From contig NZ_WLYS01000005.1 in NCBI RefSeq assembly GCF_011316935.1, positions 124,001 to 188,000 on the forward strand: 64,000 bases of DNA, read 5' to 3'. The notes beneath the pieces were generated by a model that worked only from the letters and a program-made list of their open reading frames with translations, was not told the DNA's origin and ran no database searches. Position 1 is the stretch's first letter; each line of letters starts with the position of its first letter. This DNA is from Sphingobacterium chungjuense. GTDB lineage: Bacteria > Bacteroidota > Bacteroidia > Sphingobacteriales > Sphingobacteriaceae. This document shows, piece by piece, positions 48,827-55,657 of this stretch. The position numbers were made by a program, and so were the translations under genes.

Positions 48827-48861
48827 AGTTAATTTACAATAAACTATACATATTTGCTTTC
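48827..48861 (+). promoter_or_regulatory. Promoter-like segment shared with the second module (copy 1)
   Basis: 35 bases here match 28 of the 35 bases at 51863-51897, including CAATAAACTA and ATATTTGC. CATATTTG is near the -7 consensus TAnnTTTG. The segment ends 174 bases before the peptide ATG at 49036. No TTTG partner is at the right distance, so it may need an activator or another sigma factor. Confidence 0.45.
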
Positions 48862-49035
48862 AGAGAATTAGGTGTTAATTACAATTTTCGATGCGTATGA
48901 AAATCCTTAGCTACACAAGTTTTTTAAGCTGGTTATTTAAGCTCTCGGGACAAGGATTTCATAAAACGATTTTAATTGCGCTTAGAGTAATGTGTCAGTT
49001 TATCATAACATATTTAATTAAAAGAAAGTGAAAAT

Positions 49036-49209
49036 ATGAAAGGTTTTAAAAAGAAGGTTTATTTAGCTCCTATGATCATATTGTCGTATATCGCCATGGA
49101 ATCAAACTTCAGCGCCGGCTCGGTAGTAGCGGTCACAGTCGGAAATAACGGAACTCCAACTGTTACGGATTGGCAAGAAAGAGAGACTGATGAGATTTGG
49201 AATTTTTAA
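49036..49209 (+). CDS. Small peptide of the fimbrillin-lipoprotein module, copy 1 (57 aa)
   Basis: The product MKGFKKKVYLAPMIILSYIA... has a basic start and a short hydrophobic stretch, the motif AMESNFSAGS, and a C-terminal TDWQERETDEIWNF. From the Tyr at residue 9 it aligns without gaps to copy 2 at 23 of 49 positions (shared: YLxP, MESxFxAGS, PxV, WxER, WNF). There is no cysteine. It could be exported and processed near AGS, a precursor peptide, or a structural minor subunit. The function is unknown; no family name can be given. Confidence 0.75.
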   Translation: MKGFKKKVYLAPMIILSYIAMESNFSAGSVVAVTVGNNGTPTVTDWQERETDEIWNF

Positions 49210-49233
49210 TGGGAATAATTTAGTATAAGCAGA

Positions 49234-51216
49234 ATGAAAAAGTTTATTTACTTACTCACCATTTTGGGAACACTAGGTTTGGTTAGCTGTAATGACAAAA
49301 TTTTGGAAGATAAGCCCGGAAATATGATGTTACGAGTCGATGTACAAGGTGTTTCTGAGGCGTTAGATATTGAATCAAATTCTGCTCCTCGATCAGCTAC
49401 TGTCAGAAATACGTCCTCAACGGTTCCAAGTAATACCAATGGTTTCCATGTAGATTTCTCGATATCTCAGGATGCTATAGTGCCCAATTCTGAATTTACA
49501 TCATCGGCAAATTCACAAAATGACTATAAACAGCGTGCATCTACAATAAATAGAGCTACCCAACCTATGCAAACTGGATATACGTACCGAATTCTACTAT
49601 ATAATAAAAATACAGGACAGCTTTGGAAGACTGAGCAAGGCACTTCAGGTACAGCATTATCAATAGAAGGTCAGACAGGCGAGAGCTATTTGTGGTACGC
49701 CTATTCTTACAACAATGATGATATGTTACCTGAACCAGCAAACATTGCAAATCCATCAGTAGAAACGTCTATTGTTAAAGATTTTCTCTATGCAACAGGC
49801 GAGATCAATATACCTGCAAATTCGGAAATAGACTACAACCTCCCGATTACTTTTGACCACAAGGTAACACAAATTCGTGTAAAAATAGATGCTACAGTAC
49901 TAGCAAGATTCGCAAGAATTGATAATCTAAATGCATCATTTGATAATAATAGCTATATTAAAAAAGGTCTATTTAGTATAAGGGATAATCAAACAACGAA
50001 TATTGAAGTGGTTCCCACGGAAACTATTTTCAACGCATCATCATCTAATGATACTTGGGAAGCTAACTATTATACTATTGATCCTTCAGCTGTAAGTTCC
50101 TATAAAATCATTATTAATGATTTACCTGTAAAATTCGATGGCGTAAGTGAAGATATCTCAGAAAGAAATCTTGCAACATATTTTGGATCAGCTAATAAAC
50201 CAACCTTTACCAGTAACTTTGCCGCTCCTGTTGTTGGACAACGACTTTCAACGACGCTGCGGCTAAATTATCAAGTAGCGCCATTACGCATTTTACATAT
50301 TTCAAATAATACCAGCTATGGTTATGCACTTCAACAAGGGCCATCGTGGGACTTTTTAAATTCAAAAGTGAACTTTGGCGACTTACCGGAAAGTATTGTA
50401 AAAATGGGGGTGTGGGCTCCTGGACAAGGTAGTTGGTCCGGTGGAAATCAGACAGACAATAAATCACAGAACTGGATACAATTTGCAGCTACAACTGCAT
50501 TTGATAACCAACTAGCAAGCAGATTGGCCGCAACAAACACAACAAACAGGCCGGACATAGTTATTCTAGGATATAACATGACTAGTGTACGACCAGTTGT
50601 AGCTCAGGCATTAAATTCTTATTTAAATGATAAGGGGGTTGTCATTATGCTGCTTCAAGACGCTGCGAACGCTTATACGCAATCATTTTTCAACACTATG
50701 TTTGGAGTTTCAAACATAGGCACCAATTCAAGCGGAAGTAGTGGAGCAATGTACCCCATAGAAGGGGTTGATCCAGATGATGAAATATTAAATGGACCTT
50801 TCGGAGATGTTCGAGGAAGACACTGGGGAGAAGATGCCGGTACGACACTAGGGATTACAAATTTACCTTTATCTGCAGTCACGGTTTACTCGTATGGTAA
50901 TGCTATTAATAGATCATCGGTAGCCACTAGAGTTACGATGTTTAAACACAATACTAAAAGTTTCTTTTATATAGGAGATGGTGGTTTCGTCTCTTACAAC
51001 GGAGGGAATAGCAATACGATCTGCCCTTTTAATTATGATCCTGTTGCAAAGAAACCATTACCAAAGTCTTACGGTAACGCGGGCTCTGGATATTCAGCAG
51101 GATCATTAGGTGCTTACAATAGCATTGTCATGGCTAATGTAATGGCTTGGGCAGTTGAAAAAGCCGAGCTTGAAGGTGTTAGGACATGGAAATATGCAGG
51201 GCCTCCAACACCTTAA
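49234..51216 (+). CDS. Fimbrillin-like lipoprotein, module copy 1 (660 aa)
   Basis: The lipobox is LVSC (Cys19; MKKFIYLLTILGTLGLVSCN). The N-terminal half (about 25-350) resembles the fimbrillin (FimA/Mfa) family of Bacteroidota surface proteins: GNMMLRVDVQGVSEAL, GQTGESYLWYAYSYNNDDM and FDHKVTQIRVKIDA. The C-terminal half starts with LRILHISNNTSYGYALQQGP and VILGYNMTSVRPVVAQALNS, a Rossmann/GATase-like alternation, and ends with GRHWGEDAGTTLG and GDGGFVSYNGG. The protein is probably surface-exposed. It follows the small peptide by 24 bases and shares its transcript. No adhesion or assembly partner is adjacent. Confidence 0.8.
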   Translation: MKKFIYLLTILGTLGLVSCNDKILEDKPGNMMLRVDVQGVSEALDIESNSAPRSATVRNTSSTVPSNTNGFHVDFSISQDAIVPNSEFTSSANSQNDYKQRASTINRATQPMQTGYTYRILLYNKNTGQLWKTEQGTSGTALSIEGQTGESYLWYAYSYNNDDMLPEPANIANPSVETSIVKDFLYATGEINIPANSEIDYNLPITFDHKVTQIRVKIDATVLARFARIDNLNASFDNNSYIKKGLFSIRDNQTTNIEVVPTETIFNASSSNDTWEANYYTIDPSAVSSYKIIINDLPVKFDGVSEDISERNLATYFGSANKPTFTSNFAAPVVGQRLSTTLRLNYQVAPLRILHISNNTSYGYALQQGPSWDFLNSKVNFGDLPESIVKMGVWAPGQGSWSGGNQTDNKSQNWIQFAATTAFDNQLASRLAATNTTNRPDIVILGYNMTSVRPVVAQALNSYLNDKGVVIMLLQDAANAYTQSFFNTMFGVSNIGTNSSGSSGAMYPIEGVDPDDEILNGPFGDVRGRHWGEDAGTTLGITNLPLSAVTVYSYGNAINRSSVATRVTMFKHNTKSFFYIGDGGFVSYNGGNSNTICPFNYDPVAKKPLPKSYGNAGSGYSAGSLGAYNSIVMANVMAWAVEKAELEGVRTWKYAGPPTP

Positions 51217-51289
51217 ATCGATGCATTCATACTAATTTTACAGCCAAATGATTGGTGTAAAAGAATGAATTTTCAAAGGTTATATCCAC

Positions 51290-51332
51290 AAAAGGACAAG
51301 AGAATTTCATAACAGAATTCTTTTGTCTTTTT
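51290..51332 (+). terminator. Terminator of module copy 1
   Basis: AAAAGGACAAGAGAATT (51290-51306) pairs with AATTCTTTTGTCTTTTT (51316-51332), 17 bp with two G-U pairs and a 9-base loop. It resembles the terminator of copy 2, both centred on GAATT/AATTC. Confidence 0.75.
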
Positions 51333-52047
51333 GAACAATTTACATCAGTAACAAATACATCAATCAATCTCTTTTGACGGTACTACAAATTATACTTAGT
51401 GCTCCCTATCTTTTAAAGTATAGTATAAATTATGATCTTTTTTAAGAATAAAGAAATAATTGTCGACTTGACTGTAATCAAAACATCAATAAAAAAGCTA
51501 AAAATTATCAAAAAGTAATGTCAGATAAACGTCTTGTTTATAAAATAATTTACATGCGTTGACATTGCCAACATAATTATCCCATCATATACAAATACTT
51601 ACAAATAAACCAAAGCATGGGATTTTTCACAGAATCTATAATCACAATTTTTTCTACTTATATAGCATTAAATTTGTTGTAAATTTATTAAAATAGAAAT
51701 TAATTGTACATAATTTGGAAATTTTTAATATTCTTCACTTACTTCAATAAGTATATTTTCCCTATTCAGTAAACTCATAAAATAGCCTTAAAATAATGAT
51801 AAAACCTGATTTGATGCTGTAGTCTTAACCCTACAAATCGAAATTATATTAACACTTGCGCCAGTAAAGTATCAATAAACTACAGATATTTGCCTTCTAT
51901 AAATGTTTAGTTTGATTAAAATATTTTCAAATATTTATAGAGGGAAAAATATATACATCCTTAAAATCAAATTGATTGGATTTACAAGCATCAACTTGTA
52001 GATAAAAAACATTTTTTCTTCTTGTAAAACAAATTCAATCACATAAA
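51333..52047. other. 715-base AT-rich leader before the second peptide gene
   Basis: Apart from the promoter-like segment at 51863-51897, I see no gene, RNA or repeat. Its composition matches the leader of copy 1. Confidence 0.45.
51863..51897 (+). promoter_or_regulatory. Promoter-like segment of module copy 2
   Basis: 28 of 35 bases are identical to 48827-48861; the segment ends 150 bases before the peptide ATG at 52048. GATATTTG is near TAnnTTTG. Conservation in otherwise diverged AT-rich DNA supports a regulatory role. Confidence 0.45.
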
Positions 52048-52251
52048 ATGGATTTAAATAAAAAAAGTAAACGTATTACAACAGGTGTTTATAAAAAACA
52101 CTATTTGTCACCATCAATTTCAGTCACTTTAATCACGATGGAATCAGCCTTTGCAGCAGGTTCAATAGTCAATATAAAGGTGGAAGACAATAACATACCA
52201 TATGTCGTAGAATGGGAAGAAAGGCAATCAGAGCAGACTTGGAATTTTTAA
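52048..52251 (+). CDS. Small peptide of the fimbrillin-lipoprotein module, copy 2 (67 aa)
   Basis: The product has a longer basic start (MDLNKKSKRITTGVYKKHYL), then the same pattern as copy 1: a short hydrophobic stretch, TMESAFAAGS, and a C-terminal VVEWEERQSEQTWNF. The gapless match to copy 1 (23 of 49) over the aligned region supports a real gene under selection. It precedes its lipoprotein gene by 26 bases. Confidence 0.75.
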   Translation: MDLNKKSKRITTGVYKKHYLSPSISVTLITMESAFAAGSIVNIKVEDNNIPYVVEWEERQSEQTWNF

Positions 52252-52277
52252 TCAAAACATCATATAGGTTATATAGT

Positions 52278-54281
52278 ATGAAAGCTCTTATTTATATATT
52301 CGGCATCATAGGCACAATTTGTTTGGCAGGTTGTTCGAAGGATTATTCCGTAGCACAAGTAGGGAATATGATGTTAAGAATCGATGTTGCGGGTGTAACA
52401 GAAAGTATTGTTGTCGCTAACGCCGCCAATTCTAGAGCCACCACAAATACTACATTCAGCAATATTTCGCGGACTTCTACCACTACTATGAACAATGATA
52501 ATGGAGGGTTTTATGTAGATCATGTTATGAGTCAAACTTCTGTAGGCTCCAATGTCGAAAACATCCGAGCCGCATCAGCAGAGGTTACTGATTCCGATAG
52601 ATCATCGACTATAAATCGTGCGGCTATTCCTATGCAAAATGGATACAGATACAGAATTTTATTATACAATAGAAACAGCGGACAACTTTGGCGTACAGTT
52701 CAAGGCACTGCAGGCACACCTTTGTCAATGGAGGGACAGACAGGTGAGACTTACCTGTGGTACGCCTATTCTTACAACGACAGCGAGGCTTTACCAGAAC
52801 CGGCAAACACGAATAATCCATCCATTGAAACATCTATTAATAGAGATTTTTTGTATGCAAGTGGTGAGATAACTATTCCTACAAATACGCAAGATGATTA
52901 TAATCTTAGTATTGTCTTCGAGCGTAAAGTCACGCAAGTACATATAAAGATAGATGCCACAGTATTAGCTAGGTTTGCTACGATCAATAATCTTAACGCC
53001 GCATTCGACAGGAATGATTACTTGAAAAAGGGAGTGTTTAGCATCCGAAGCAATCAAATGAACGCAGTTGAAGCAGTACCTACTGAAGTTATTTTCAATG
53101 CTCCATCTTCAGATAATACTTGGGAAAGAATCTATTATACTGTGGATCCGGCATCAGTAAGTACATATAATGTAGTGATAAATGATCTACCCGTAAGATT
53201 TGATGGTGTTCGTGAAGATATTTCACAGCGAAATTTAGCAACCTATTTCGGCGCAGCTAATAGACCGACTTTTACCAATGAATTTGAAAATGCAGCGATC
53301 GGCCAACGCTTATCAAGTATCTTAAATCTTAATTATCGAGTCTCTCCTTTACGAATCTTACATATTTCGAGTGGGGCGTCCTATGGTTATGCTTTAGAAA
53401 GAGGTCCAGCTTGGGATTTCTTAAATGCCTCAGAGAATTTTGGAGATCTTCCAGAAAGTATCGTCAAAATGGACTCTTGGTCACCAGGATTAGGTAGTTG
53501 GGCAGGAGGAAATCGTACGCAAAATGCCGCTGAAAATCGGATGTTGTATGCCGCTACAGCTGCTTTCGACAATCGATTGACGGCTAGATTGGCTGCTACC
53601 AATAATACAAACAGACCTGATATCGTGATCATAGGGTACAATATGATTAACATACGACCAGCAGTAGCTCGAGCGTTAAATAATTATTTAGACAATAACG
53701 GTGTCGTCATCATGATGCTGCAGGACGCCGCAAATAACAATACACGATCATTTTTCAATACGATGTTTGGAGTTTCAAACATTGGCGCTATTAGTAATGG
53801 TACCGCTGGAGCGATGTATCCGATTGTAGGTAATGATCCAAATGACAAAATATTGAATGGCCCATTCGGGGATGTCCGTGGACGGCATTGGGGTGAAGAT
53901 GCAGGAACCACGCTCGGACTTACAAACATTCCATTGTCTCAAGTCACCGTATATTCAAATGGCAATGCTATCAACAGGTCATCACTAGCCAATAGGGTTA
54001 CGATGTTTAAACACAACACTAAAAATTTCTTCTTTATTGGAGATGGTGGGTTCGTATCGTACAACGGGGGTCGAAGCTTCGTTATTTGCCCATTTAATTA
54101 TGATACACGTGCGAAGCGACCTCTACCTAAAGCATATGGTAATGCTGGCTCTGGCTATTCAGCTGGCTCGAGGAATGCGTACAATAGCGTAGTCATTGCG
54201 AATGTAATGGCTTGGGCTGTAGAGCGAGCCGAATTGCAAGGTATAAGACAATGGAGATACGCCGCACCACCAAGGCCATAA
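52278..54281 (+). CDS. Fimbrillin-like lipoprotein, module copy 2 (667 aa)
   Basis: From the ATG at 52278 (MKALIYIFGIIGTICLAGC) the lipobox is LAGC (Cys19), at the same residue as in copy 1. It aligns with copy 1 along its whole length, with blocks nearly identical (GRHWGEDAGTTLG, VTMFKHNTK, GDGGFVSYNGG, GNAGSGYSAGS). Many Lys, Gln and Asn positions in copy 1 are Arg here (NKNTGQLWKT to NRNSGQLWRT, KAELEGVRTWKY to RAELQGIRQWRY). It is probably a paralogous surface lipoprotein with altered charge. An upstream extension of the frame to 52212 overlaps the peptide gene and is unlikely to be used. Confidence 0.8.
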   Translation: MKALIYIFGIIGTICLAGCSKDYSVAQVGNMMLRIDVAGVTESIVVANAANSRATTNTTFSNISRTSTTTMNNDNGGFYVDHVMSQTSVGSNVENIRAASAEVTDSDRSSTINRAAIPMQNGYRYRILLYNRNSGQLWRTVQGTAGTPLSMEGQTGETYLWYAYSYNDSEALPEPANTNNPSIETSINRDFLYASGEITIPTNTQDDYNLSIVFERKVTQVHIKIDATVLARFATINNLNAAFDRNDYLKKGVFSIRSNQMNAVEAVPTEVIFNAPSSDNTWERIYYTVDPASVSTYNVVINDLPVRFDGVREDISQRNLATYFGAANRPTFTNEFENAAIGQRLSSILNLNYRVSPLRILHISSGASYGYALERGPAWDFLNASENFGDLPESIVKMDSWSPGLGSWAGGNRTQNAAENRMLYAATAAFDNRLTARLAATNNTNRPDIVIIGYNMINIRPAVARALNNYLDNNGVVIMMLQDAANNNTRSFFNTMFGVSNIGAISNGTAGAMYPIVGNDPNDKILNGPFGDVRGRHWGEDAGTTLGLTNIPLSQVTVYSNGNAINRSSLANRVTMFKHNTKNFFFIGDGGFVSYNGGRSFVICPFNYDTRAKRPLPKAYGNAGSGYSAGSRNAYNSVVIANVMAWAVERAELQGIRQWRYAAPPRP

Positions 54282-54355
54282 TTCTAACCAAAAGTTTTGA
54301 ATACCATTGGTCAGCCGCAGTCCTAGGCACTATATTAAATAAAAGTCGTCAATGT

Positions 54356-54391
54356 GAGAGGAGGGAATTCATTTCAGAATTCTCTCTTTTC
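54356..54391 (+). terminator. Terminator of module copy 2
   Basis: GAGAGGAGGGAATTC (54356-54370) pairs with GAATTCTCTCTTTTC (54377-54391), 15 bp with three G-U pairs and a 6-base loop. It shares the GAATT/AATTC apex with the terminator of copy 1. Confidence 0.7.
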
Positions 54392-54511
54392 TGTAGTACC
54401 TACTGTCAAGCATCTGAATTTCGACGAGATGATTAGAATGATACAATGCAAAAAATTGTTAACTTCATACATCCACAAGCGTACTATTTTGCTTTTAGTC
54501 TTATTCACAAA

Positions 54512-55657
54512 ATGATGCATCCTCAACACTTCCTATTCGCATTTATTCCAGCTATTCTCCTTTTTTTTGGCCATGTTAATGAATCCAGTGCACAGCATAA
54601 GGGTCTACTTCCGGGTTTTGATGCCATTGAATGTGAGGAAATTTTAAAATTGAACAAAGCATTGCTGGACACCGTGTCAGACAACAAGTTTGAAGACATG
54701 TTGGCCGGTTATAGCATGTATTATCGCTCACCAAGCGTTGGTCTCGACAATCGAGCAGACGTCTGGATCAGAAATGATTCTACCGTGGTATTAATTATCC
54801 GAGGCACGACCCGGAAGCAAGAATCCATCTTGGCCGATTTTTACTGCGCCATGATACCTGCAAGCGGCAGCATACAAATGCAGAAGGGTCACGATTTTTC
54901 CTATACATTAGCTAGGGATGATCGCGCTGCCGTGCATGCGGGTTTTTTGATAGGTTTTGTTTATCTCGCCGATCATCTGGAGAATACATTGCAGCAGTTG
55001 TATGCTGCTGGCTATCGGCAATATATTGTAGGTGGGCACTCTCAAGGCGGTGCGTTGAGTTATTATTTCAGTGCATGGCTAATGCAAAAGCGTGAACACG
55101 GTGAGATGAAAGATATTTCGGTAAAAACATACGCTAGTGCGGCACCAAAAATGGGGAACAGGTATTTTGCCTACGATTATGATAATGCAAATCGATCGGA
55201 GTGGAGCTTCAGCATTGTTAATACGGCCGATGCCATACCAGAAATGCCATTGACAACGCAGCAGTTAGATATTGATATGAATGAACCAAACCCGATCGTC
55301 GGATTATACACCCGCATAGACAATTTACCATTCTTCAAACGATTCTTCTTAAAGCGATCATTCAACATAATGAAGAAGCGCGCAAAAAAATCATCTGATG
55401 CCTACCAAAAATATTTAGGGAAATATACCGGTCGCTTTATCACCCGTTTTTTACCCGAACTAAAAATCCCCGAACCCGTCAAAACGACTTATTTCCAACG
55501 TCCGGGTGTGCCAATCATTTTATCCGCCAACAAAGCATACTCCGATTTCTTTGCGGACAACGCACGCTATTTTCACCACGGTATTGATACCTATCGTTTT
55601 TTACTGCGACAATATTATGATGGTTTAGACGAGTATGCACCTTTTGTAAAAAGGTAA
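54512..55657 (+). CDS. Exported class 3 lipase-like protein
   Basis: From the ATG at 54512 (MMHPQHFLFAFIPAILLFFG) the 381-residue protein has a signal peptide ending ESSAQ. The nucleophile elbow is GGHSQGGALSYYF (GxSxG) after a helix, and VVLIIRGTTRK is the oxyanion-loop strand, both typical of lipase class 3 (fungal lipase-like) enzymes. It hydrolyses acyl esters outside the cytosol. It may relate to the phospholipase operon that begins further on, but has its own transcript. Confidence 0.85.
   Translation: MMHPQHFLFAFIPAILLFFGHVNESSAQHKGLLPGFDAIECEEILKLNKALLDTVSDNKFEDMLAGYSMYYRSPSVGLDNRADVWIRNDSTVVLIIRGTTRKQESILADFYCAMIPASGSIQMQKGHDFSYTLARDDRAAVHAGFLIGFVYLADHLENTLQQLYAAGYRQYIVGGHSQGGALSYYFSAWLMQKREHGEMKDISVKTYASAAPKMGNRYFAYDYDNANRSEWSFSIVNTADAIPEMPLTTQQLDIDMNEPNPIVGLYTRIDNLPFFKRFFLKRSFNIMKKRAKKSSDAYQKYLGKYTGRFITRFLPELKIPEPVKTTYFQRPGVPIILSANKAYSDFFADNARYFHHGIDTYRFLLRQYYDGLDEYAPFVKR

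Follow-up and report, generated by a model that had tools for sequence, protein, structure and literature searches.

A dedicated small peptide very probably acts in trans with fimbrillin-like lipoproteins in Sphingobacterium and other Bacteroidota

In the 64,000-nucleotide stretch of the Sphingobacterium chungjuense genome analyzed here (hereafter, the window), a very short gene twice precedes a gene for a large lipoprotein, which raises the question of whether the two products work as one unit and what the small one may do for the large one. In module A, a 57-aa ORF (49036..49209, + strand) encodes peptide A, a member of the peptide family described below with the C-terminal end ...DEIWNF, and a 660-aa ORF (49234..51216, + strand) encodes lipoprotein A, which has a signal peptide and the lipobox LVSC (Cys codon at 49288-49290). 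Module B follows with peptide B (52048..52251, + strand; 67 aa, C-terminal end ...EQTWNF) and lipoprotein B (52278..54281, + strand; 667 aa, lipobox LAGC). Full-length homologues were also found for lipoprotein B, which belongs to the same family as lipoprotein A, and the two lipoproteins share 66% identity over their full length. A preliminary description of this DNA had reported two back-to-back modules of identical order and 23 gap-free matches over 49 positions between the peptides; both statements were confirmed, the second by a recount on the translations.

Both modules are framed by similar non-coding features. An upstream element in module A (CAATAAACTAtAcATATTTGCtTTC; 48827..48861, + strand, about 200 nt 5' of the peptide A start) has a counterpart in module B (51863..51897, + strand), so that a 35-base element lies ~175-200 nt 5' of each window peptide. 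The two copies are identical at 28 of 35 positions, compared to a best value of 26 among 60 mononucleotide-shuffled controls, a maximum that is possibly slightly low given that the shuffle search needed three matching columns as a shortcut; taken alone, the two segments appear only modestly beyond chance and are weak evidence. Two related species (L110, L123) also have the element 150-200 nt 5' of their orthologous peptides, and it precedes one other module type (L117/L023) at a similar distance; it is probably a shared promoter or operator. A sigma-70 consensus scan returned nothing useful. The lipoprotein genes are followed by hairpins at 51289..51333 (+ strand; 19 pairs with G-U pairs included, RNA fold z -5.6) and 54356..54391 (+ strand; 15 pairs with G-U pairs included, z -2.9 for the stretch). 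Their folding strength agrees with the earlier reading of G-U-rich terminators, which is probable, although neither hairpin was listed by a consensus terminator scan. On the 3' side of module B lies a class 3 lipase gene (54446-55657; PF01764, E 3.8e-17), which borders a sigma factor/FecR/TonB-receptor-like cluster on its other side and is missing at the corresponding place in S. corticibacter (L198).

An AlphaFold2 model of lipoprotein A (40-row alignment, in which the lipobox Cys is invariant; mean pLDDT 80) supports the fimbrillin-like front and Rossmann-like back proposed previously. Foldseek against the PDB matched the two-domain front half (49321..50277, + strand) to type V fimbrillins, among them BF2867, BF1861, Mfa2 and FimA1, at E 8e-8 to 1e-5 (4h40, E 8e-8; 3sy6; 5nfi, Mfa2; 6jzk, FimA1, E 4e-6). 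For the back half (50278..51213, + strand), the helix/strand pattern of the model and Foldseek matches at E 2e-4 to 5e-4 (4pxy, E 2e-4; 4jqs; 4e5v) point to a ThuA-like Rossmann domain. Lipoprotein B likewise has a predicted fimbrillin-like front and ThuA-like back. In profile searches, the Pfam model Mfa_like_1 matched the lipoprotein below threshold (E 0.003, 18.2 bits vs a cut-off of 27), no Pfam ThuA match to the back half was listed at E up to 10, and the four window proteins had nothing over the cut-off in Pfam and no NCBIfam match at E up to 10. Searches of PDB sequences with the lipoprotein (phmmer) and with the peptide profile yielded nothing meaningful. The front half is predicted to be fimbrillin-like in fold and lies outside the fimbrillin family by the Pfam criterion.

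The back half is an exchangeable domain. Most lipoprotein paralogues carry a different one, and FISUMP (PF09603, Fib_succ_major) is recognizable in some of those in the window's genome, above the cut-off in L020 (E 8e-13) and below it in L018 and L023. These paralogues resemble FISUMP proteins in carrying that domain behind the same front half, in the very position occupied in the window pair by the ThuA-like tail. The lipoproteins end in PPTP/PPRP, which is the end of the ThuA-like domain, and a C-terminal donor tail of their own is absent.

The same tandem is present in S. corticibacter 2c-3. Since the orthologues there are closer to their counterparts (77% identity for A/A' and 82% for B/B') than A is to B, the duplication predates the split from S. 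corticibacter and both pairs have been retained, in agreement with the paired retention through divergence that had been suggested. A frameshift right after the signal peptide of the S. corticibacter lipoprotein A orthologue (L110, 5630-5900) indicates a pseudogene or an assembly error; the peptide beside it is intact. The window's genome (3.87 Mb) contains a third full module of this type on another contig (C12:130587-132790), and the peptide search matches 13 places in total, with the other copies mostly lying directly 5' of shorter lipoproteins, some of which have FISUMP in place of the Rossmann-like tail. The tandem is thus one local instance within a large paralogous family that is dispersed over the genome. 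Three Mfa_like_1 fimbrillins of this genome did not appear among its peptide loci.

Across the genus, the peptide family was found in 35 of 41 Sphingobacterium genomes, often at 5-16 copies each. Among 138 distinct peptides, 116 are encoded immediately 5' of a lipoprotein gene whose product belongs to the same N-terminal family, eight immediately 3' of such a gene, and three more 3' of one that is cut by the locus edge. The peptide precedes the lipoprotein in most cases, but the order is reversed in about 11, and a single locus (L125) contains both orders. When the lipoprotein was used as the query, 27 of 28 congeneric loci had an adjacent peptide, and the 28th lies in an operon that contains one; the six Sphingobacterium genomes with no peptide match have no lipoprotein match either. 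Outside the genus, Elizabethkingia has four full-length lipoprotein homologues (41-50% identity), each preceded by a peptide, and pairing holds at every one of the 24 peptide loci examined in that genus. Lipoproteins that lack a peptide, which would have spoken against the proposed partnership, are thus not the rule. The largest expansions seen are in the Elizabethkingia genomes G565-G567, and in G743, with 26-32 peptide matches per genome. The spread is patchy, with matches in 5 of 100 genomes of Elizabethkingia's family and few genomes across the class. Hundreds of copies of the two-gene unit exist in Bacteroidota, the two window modules among them.

Weak matches to the peptide occur in family f33, which we read as Bacteroidaceae-type, in 56 of 121 genomes. 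These small ORFs score only 17-31 bits and share a Y..P.[IV].V..E....S motif, and their homology to the peptide family is likely, though short of proven. Some stand directly before Mfa_like_1 fimbrillins (L173, L230, L233, L247, L248), and about a dozen of the 29 loci have the small ORF directly after other secreted proteins. Because these weak members often follow secreted proteins of other kinds, the peptides may in general have partners other than the fimbrillin fold.

The peptides, about 60 residues long, are under strong purifying selection as proteins. Orthologues in three species gave dN/dS of about 0.05-0.24 where dS was measurable (pooled pN/pS 0.22), values that are approximate given the near saturation of synonymous sites in many pairs, yet are all far below 1; against the S. 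corticibacter orthologues, the values were 0.06 for peptide A and 0.15 for peptide B, and the tail is unchanged or nearly so among orthologues. The protein-level conservation whose absence would have spoken against the preliminary description is therefore found, and together with the pairing it supports the earlier proposal that peptide and lipoprotein act together. The median spacing of the two genes is 21 nt, with overlaps in 14 of 89 pairs, a layout that points to translational coupling.

Each peptide has two distinct parts. The N-terminal half is near-constant and slightly basic (consensus KKKYVSPTIEVVIIELESGIAAGS; motif Y..P.I.V..IELE.GIAAGS), and the C-terminal half is acidic, with a mean net charge of -4.8. 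Of the peptides, 83% terminate in W, F or L, compared to a frequency of 7.5% for these residues over the 30 positions before the last, and 58 of the 118 non-redundant peptides carry a Phi-[DNE]-Phi-COOH end, where shuffled tails predict about two. No Sec signal was detected in the peptide: its best 12-residue hydropathy is 1.19, compared to 2.54 in the partner signal peptides, only 2% of peptides exceed 2.0, and a near-invariant Glu sits inside the only semi-hydrophobic stretch. Export by Sec was rejected on this ground.

The tail also follows its partner. Distances between peptide C-terminal parts correlate with those between lipoprotein fronts (Mantel r = 0.66, 108 pairs), whereas shuffling peptides within genomes gave values that averaged 0.19 and never exceeded 0.31. 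For the N-terminal part, the correlation is 0.17-0.21, falling to 0.00-0.05 for distant pairs. The single peptide column most informative about the partner is the last residue. Of 12 peptides beside ThuA-type lipoproteins, 10 end in F, mostly as WNF or WDF, and those of the ThuA-type homologues in Elizabethkingia end in WEF. Such co-variation partly reflects the shared descent of linked genes. Since both parts of the peptide share one history, their differing behaviour favours a match to the partner in the tail and not in the front, which mitigates the effect of shared descent and does not remove it. The tail tracks the back half of the lipoprotein as well, so that binding may take place there rather than at the front.

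We consider it highly probable that a genuine, trans-acting and partner-specific peptide-lipoprotein unit underlies these patterns. From the pairing, the selection, the two-part architecture, the co-variation and the predicted lipoprotein fold, we infer a model in which the module would comprise a fimbrillin-fold surface lipoprotein with an exchangeable C-terminal domain and a dedicated small partner that acts in trans. The N-terminal half of the peptide would be recognized by something common to all copies, and the acidic C-terminal half, with its hydrophobic-[D/N/E]-(W/F/L)-COOH end, would recognize the lipoprotein encoded beside it. By taking the place of a strand in the fimbrillin-like front, as donor-strand complementation from a separate polypeptide, the tail may fold, cap or anchor the adhesin-like lipoprotein. 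Binding of the tail to the front seems to us an evenly balanced proposition, and strand insertion specifically is a more doubtful one. As a whole, a two-gene surface unit whose peptide tail serves as a trans donor strand is the best explanation we can offer, and we hold it tentatively.

A comparable C-terminus belongs to the type V fimbrillin Mfa1, which cannot polymerize without its last six residues, SYEVDL, and in which the C-terminus is able to occupy part of the vacated strand-1 position (PMC5789003). The peptide ends share the Phi-D-Phi pattern of this tail, although the likeness spans just three residues. Modelling of the peptide-lipoprotein complex, which the preliminary description had suggested, gave no docked complex: a first tethered AlphaFold2 run (with read-through stops) showed no docking, with a peptide pLDDT of about 40, and a second (127 rows) gave about 79 for residues 11-20 and about 50 for the tail, with no strand pairing. 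The strand-donor reading is further weakened by the missing export signal, as no route for the peptide to a periplasmic or surface partner was found.

This difficulty would vanish if the peptide never left the cell and acted as a cytoplasmic or inner-membrane pilot or chaperone, an explanation that is a serious, if somewhat unlikely, competitor. The N-terminal half would dock on a shared lipoprotein-export factor (Sec, Lol or the surface-export machinery), and the matched tail would hold the cognate precursor until export. Such a role fits a peptide that has no signal peptide, a common N-terminal half that carries no partner signal next to a matched C-terminal half, and the translation-coupled gene spacing; the varied secreted proteins adjoined by the Bacteroidaceae-type members are also what is expected of an export helper. 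However, the shared factor is still hypothetical, and a free aromatic C-terminus is not obviously needed by a chaperone of unfolded precursors. It is this free C-terminal Phi-D-Phi end, as in the SYEVDL of Mfa1, that leads us to favor a strand donor or cap slightly over an export pilot.

It is improbable that the peptide is instead an exported signalling or RiPP-like product, with the N-terminal half as a leader cut at AGS, the C-terminal half as the released product, and the lipoprotein as receptor, carrier or immunity protein. A constant leader-like half before a variable acidic core, Gly/Ser at the possible cleavage point and the expansion into many specificities would all suit this idea. 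Nevertheless, export by a C39/double-glycine route was rejected, as the peptides have no GG motif and Peptidase C39 exporters are absent from G002, G004 and G062, three complete or near-complete genomes that each carry 7-8 peptides. Furthermore, no modifying enzyme was recognized in the neighbourhoods examined, and no NCBIfam precursor family matched.

A small ORF that is usually upstream and close, with a conserved end near its stop codon, could also be a cis-acting leader or ribosome-arrest regulator of the translation of the downstream lipoprotein. We regard this as very improbable and rejected it because the upstream position is not universal. The peptide gene stands 3' of its lipoprotein gene in about 11 cases, several of them, as in L126 and L064, with no same-strand target after the peptide, and three species share a conserved orphan copy. 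Reversed orders and orphans rule out action as a cis leader in general and indicate that the peptide acts in trans. In addition, both halves of the peptide are conserved as protein, and a tail that tracks the lipoprotein sequence is needless for action in cis. Least probable of all is mere co-duplication of two genes with no shared function, for, common as tandem and dispersed duplications are here, the pairing survives in distantly related Bacteroidia genera, in both gene orders and at many independent loci, and purifying selection on the peptide is strong.

Compared with known systems, the lipoprotein half of the unit is of a known kind and the dedicated peptide partner is the new part. Like components of type V fimbriae (FimA/Mfa1 shaft, Mfa2 anchor and tip proteins), the window protein is a lipoprotein with two predicted beta-sandwich domains, and it is also predicted to share the long, flexible, Arg-containing loop after strand 1 (model residues 111-133, pLDDT below 50). 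It differs from type V fimbrillins in falling under the Mfa_like_1 cut-off, from the shaft proteins in having a ThuA-like or other domain at the C-terminus rather than a donor tail, and from the fimbrial systems in the attached peptide gene, which was absent from the descriptions of fimbrial operons that we found. The back half has the predicted Rossmann-like fold of ThuA-like proteins (BACUNI_01602, PARMER_02418), but it has no Pfam ThuA match and is fused behind a fimbrillin-like lipoprotein. A limited search of Pfam, NCBIfam and the open-licence literature, including work on small proteins with fimbrillins, on Sphingobacterium or Elizabethkingia fimbrillins or FISUMP, and on type IX secretion, turned up no account of either the peptide family or the gene pair, in line with the earlier remark that no described system has this layout.

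For the assembly of type V fimbrillins, P. gingivalis has no described chaperone or usher (PMC5789003), and the peptide is a concrete and easily tested candidate for a part in this assembly. A family of up to ~30 copies per genome, in nearly every case beside a surface lipoprotein that its C-terminal half matches, points to a dedicated partner for adhesin-like surface proteins of Bacteroidota, and hundreds of small ORFs become predictable gene pairs. If true, a trans donor-strand peptide would provide a fold with no assembly helpers found with an assembly factor used throughout the class. The extension of this reading to Bacteroidota in general, with fimbrillin-fold lipoproteins completed by the trans donor tail of a dedicated peptide and the N-terminal half exported or positioned by a common machine, is unlikely.

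Several loci depart from the usual layout. The orphan peptide (L004, L114, L122) is followed, 170-370 nt 3', by a protein of ~170 aa with hydrophobic stretches, and no lipoprotein is encoded there. In two species, peptide and lipoprotein are separated by a gene with a LuxR-like helix-turn-helix end (L018, 7621-8268; L112). In f33 loci L226-L254, small ORFs directly follow secreted proteins ending like GVYIVNGQKVVVK, an ending reminiscent of the C-terminal domain of type IX secretion; a comparable neighbour elsewhere (L172) matches Por_Secre_tail. Finally, an operon in G006 (L225/L031, contig C10) consists of a peptide, a FISUMP-like lipoprotein and a ThuA-type lipoprotein, and the FISUMP-like protein has an unusual extension ending in GGNNNVNF, similar to a peptide tail, which may represent a fusion in this single case.
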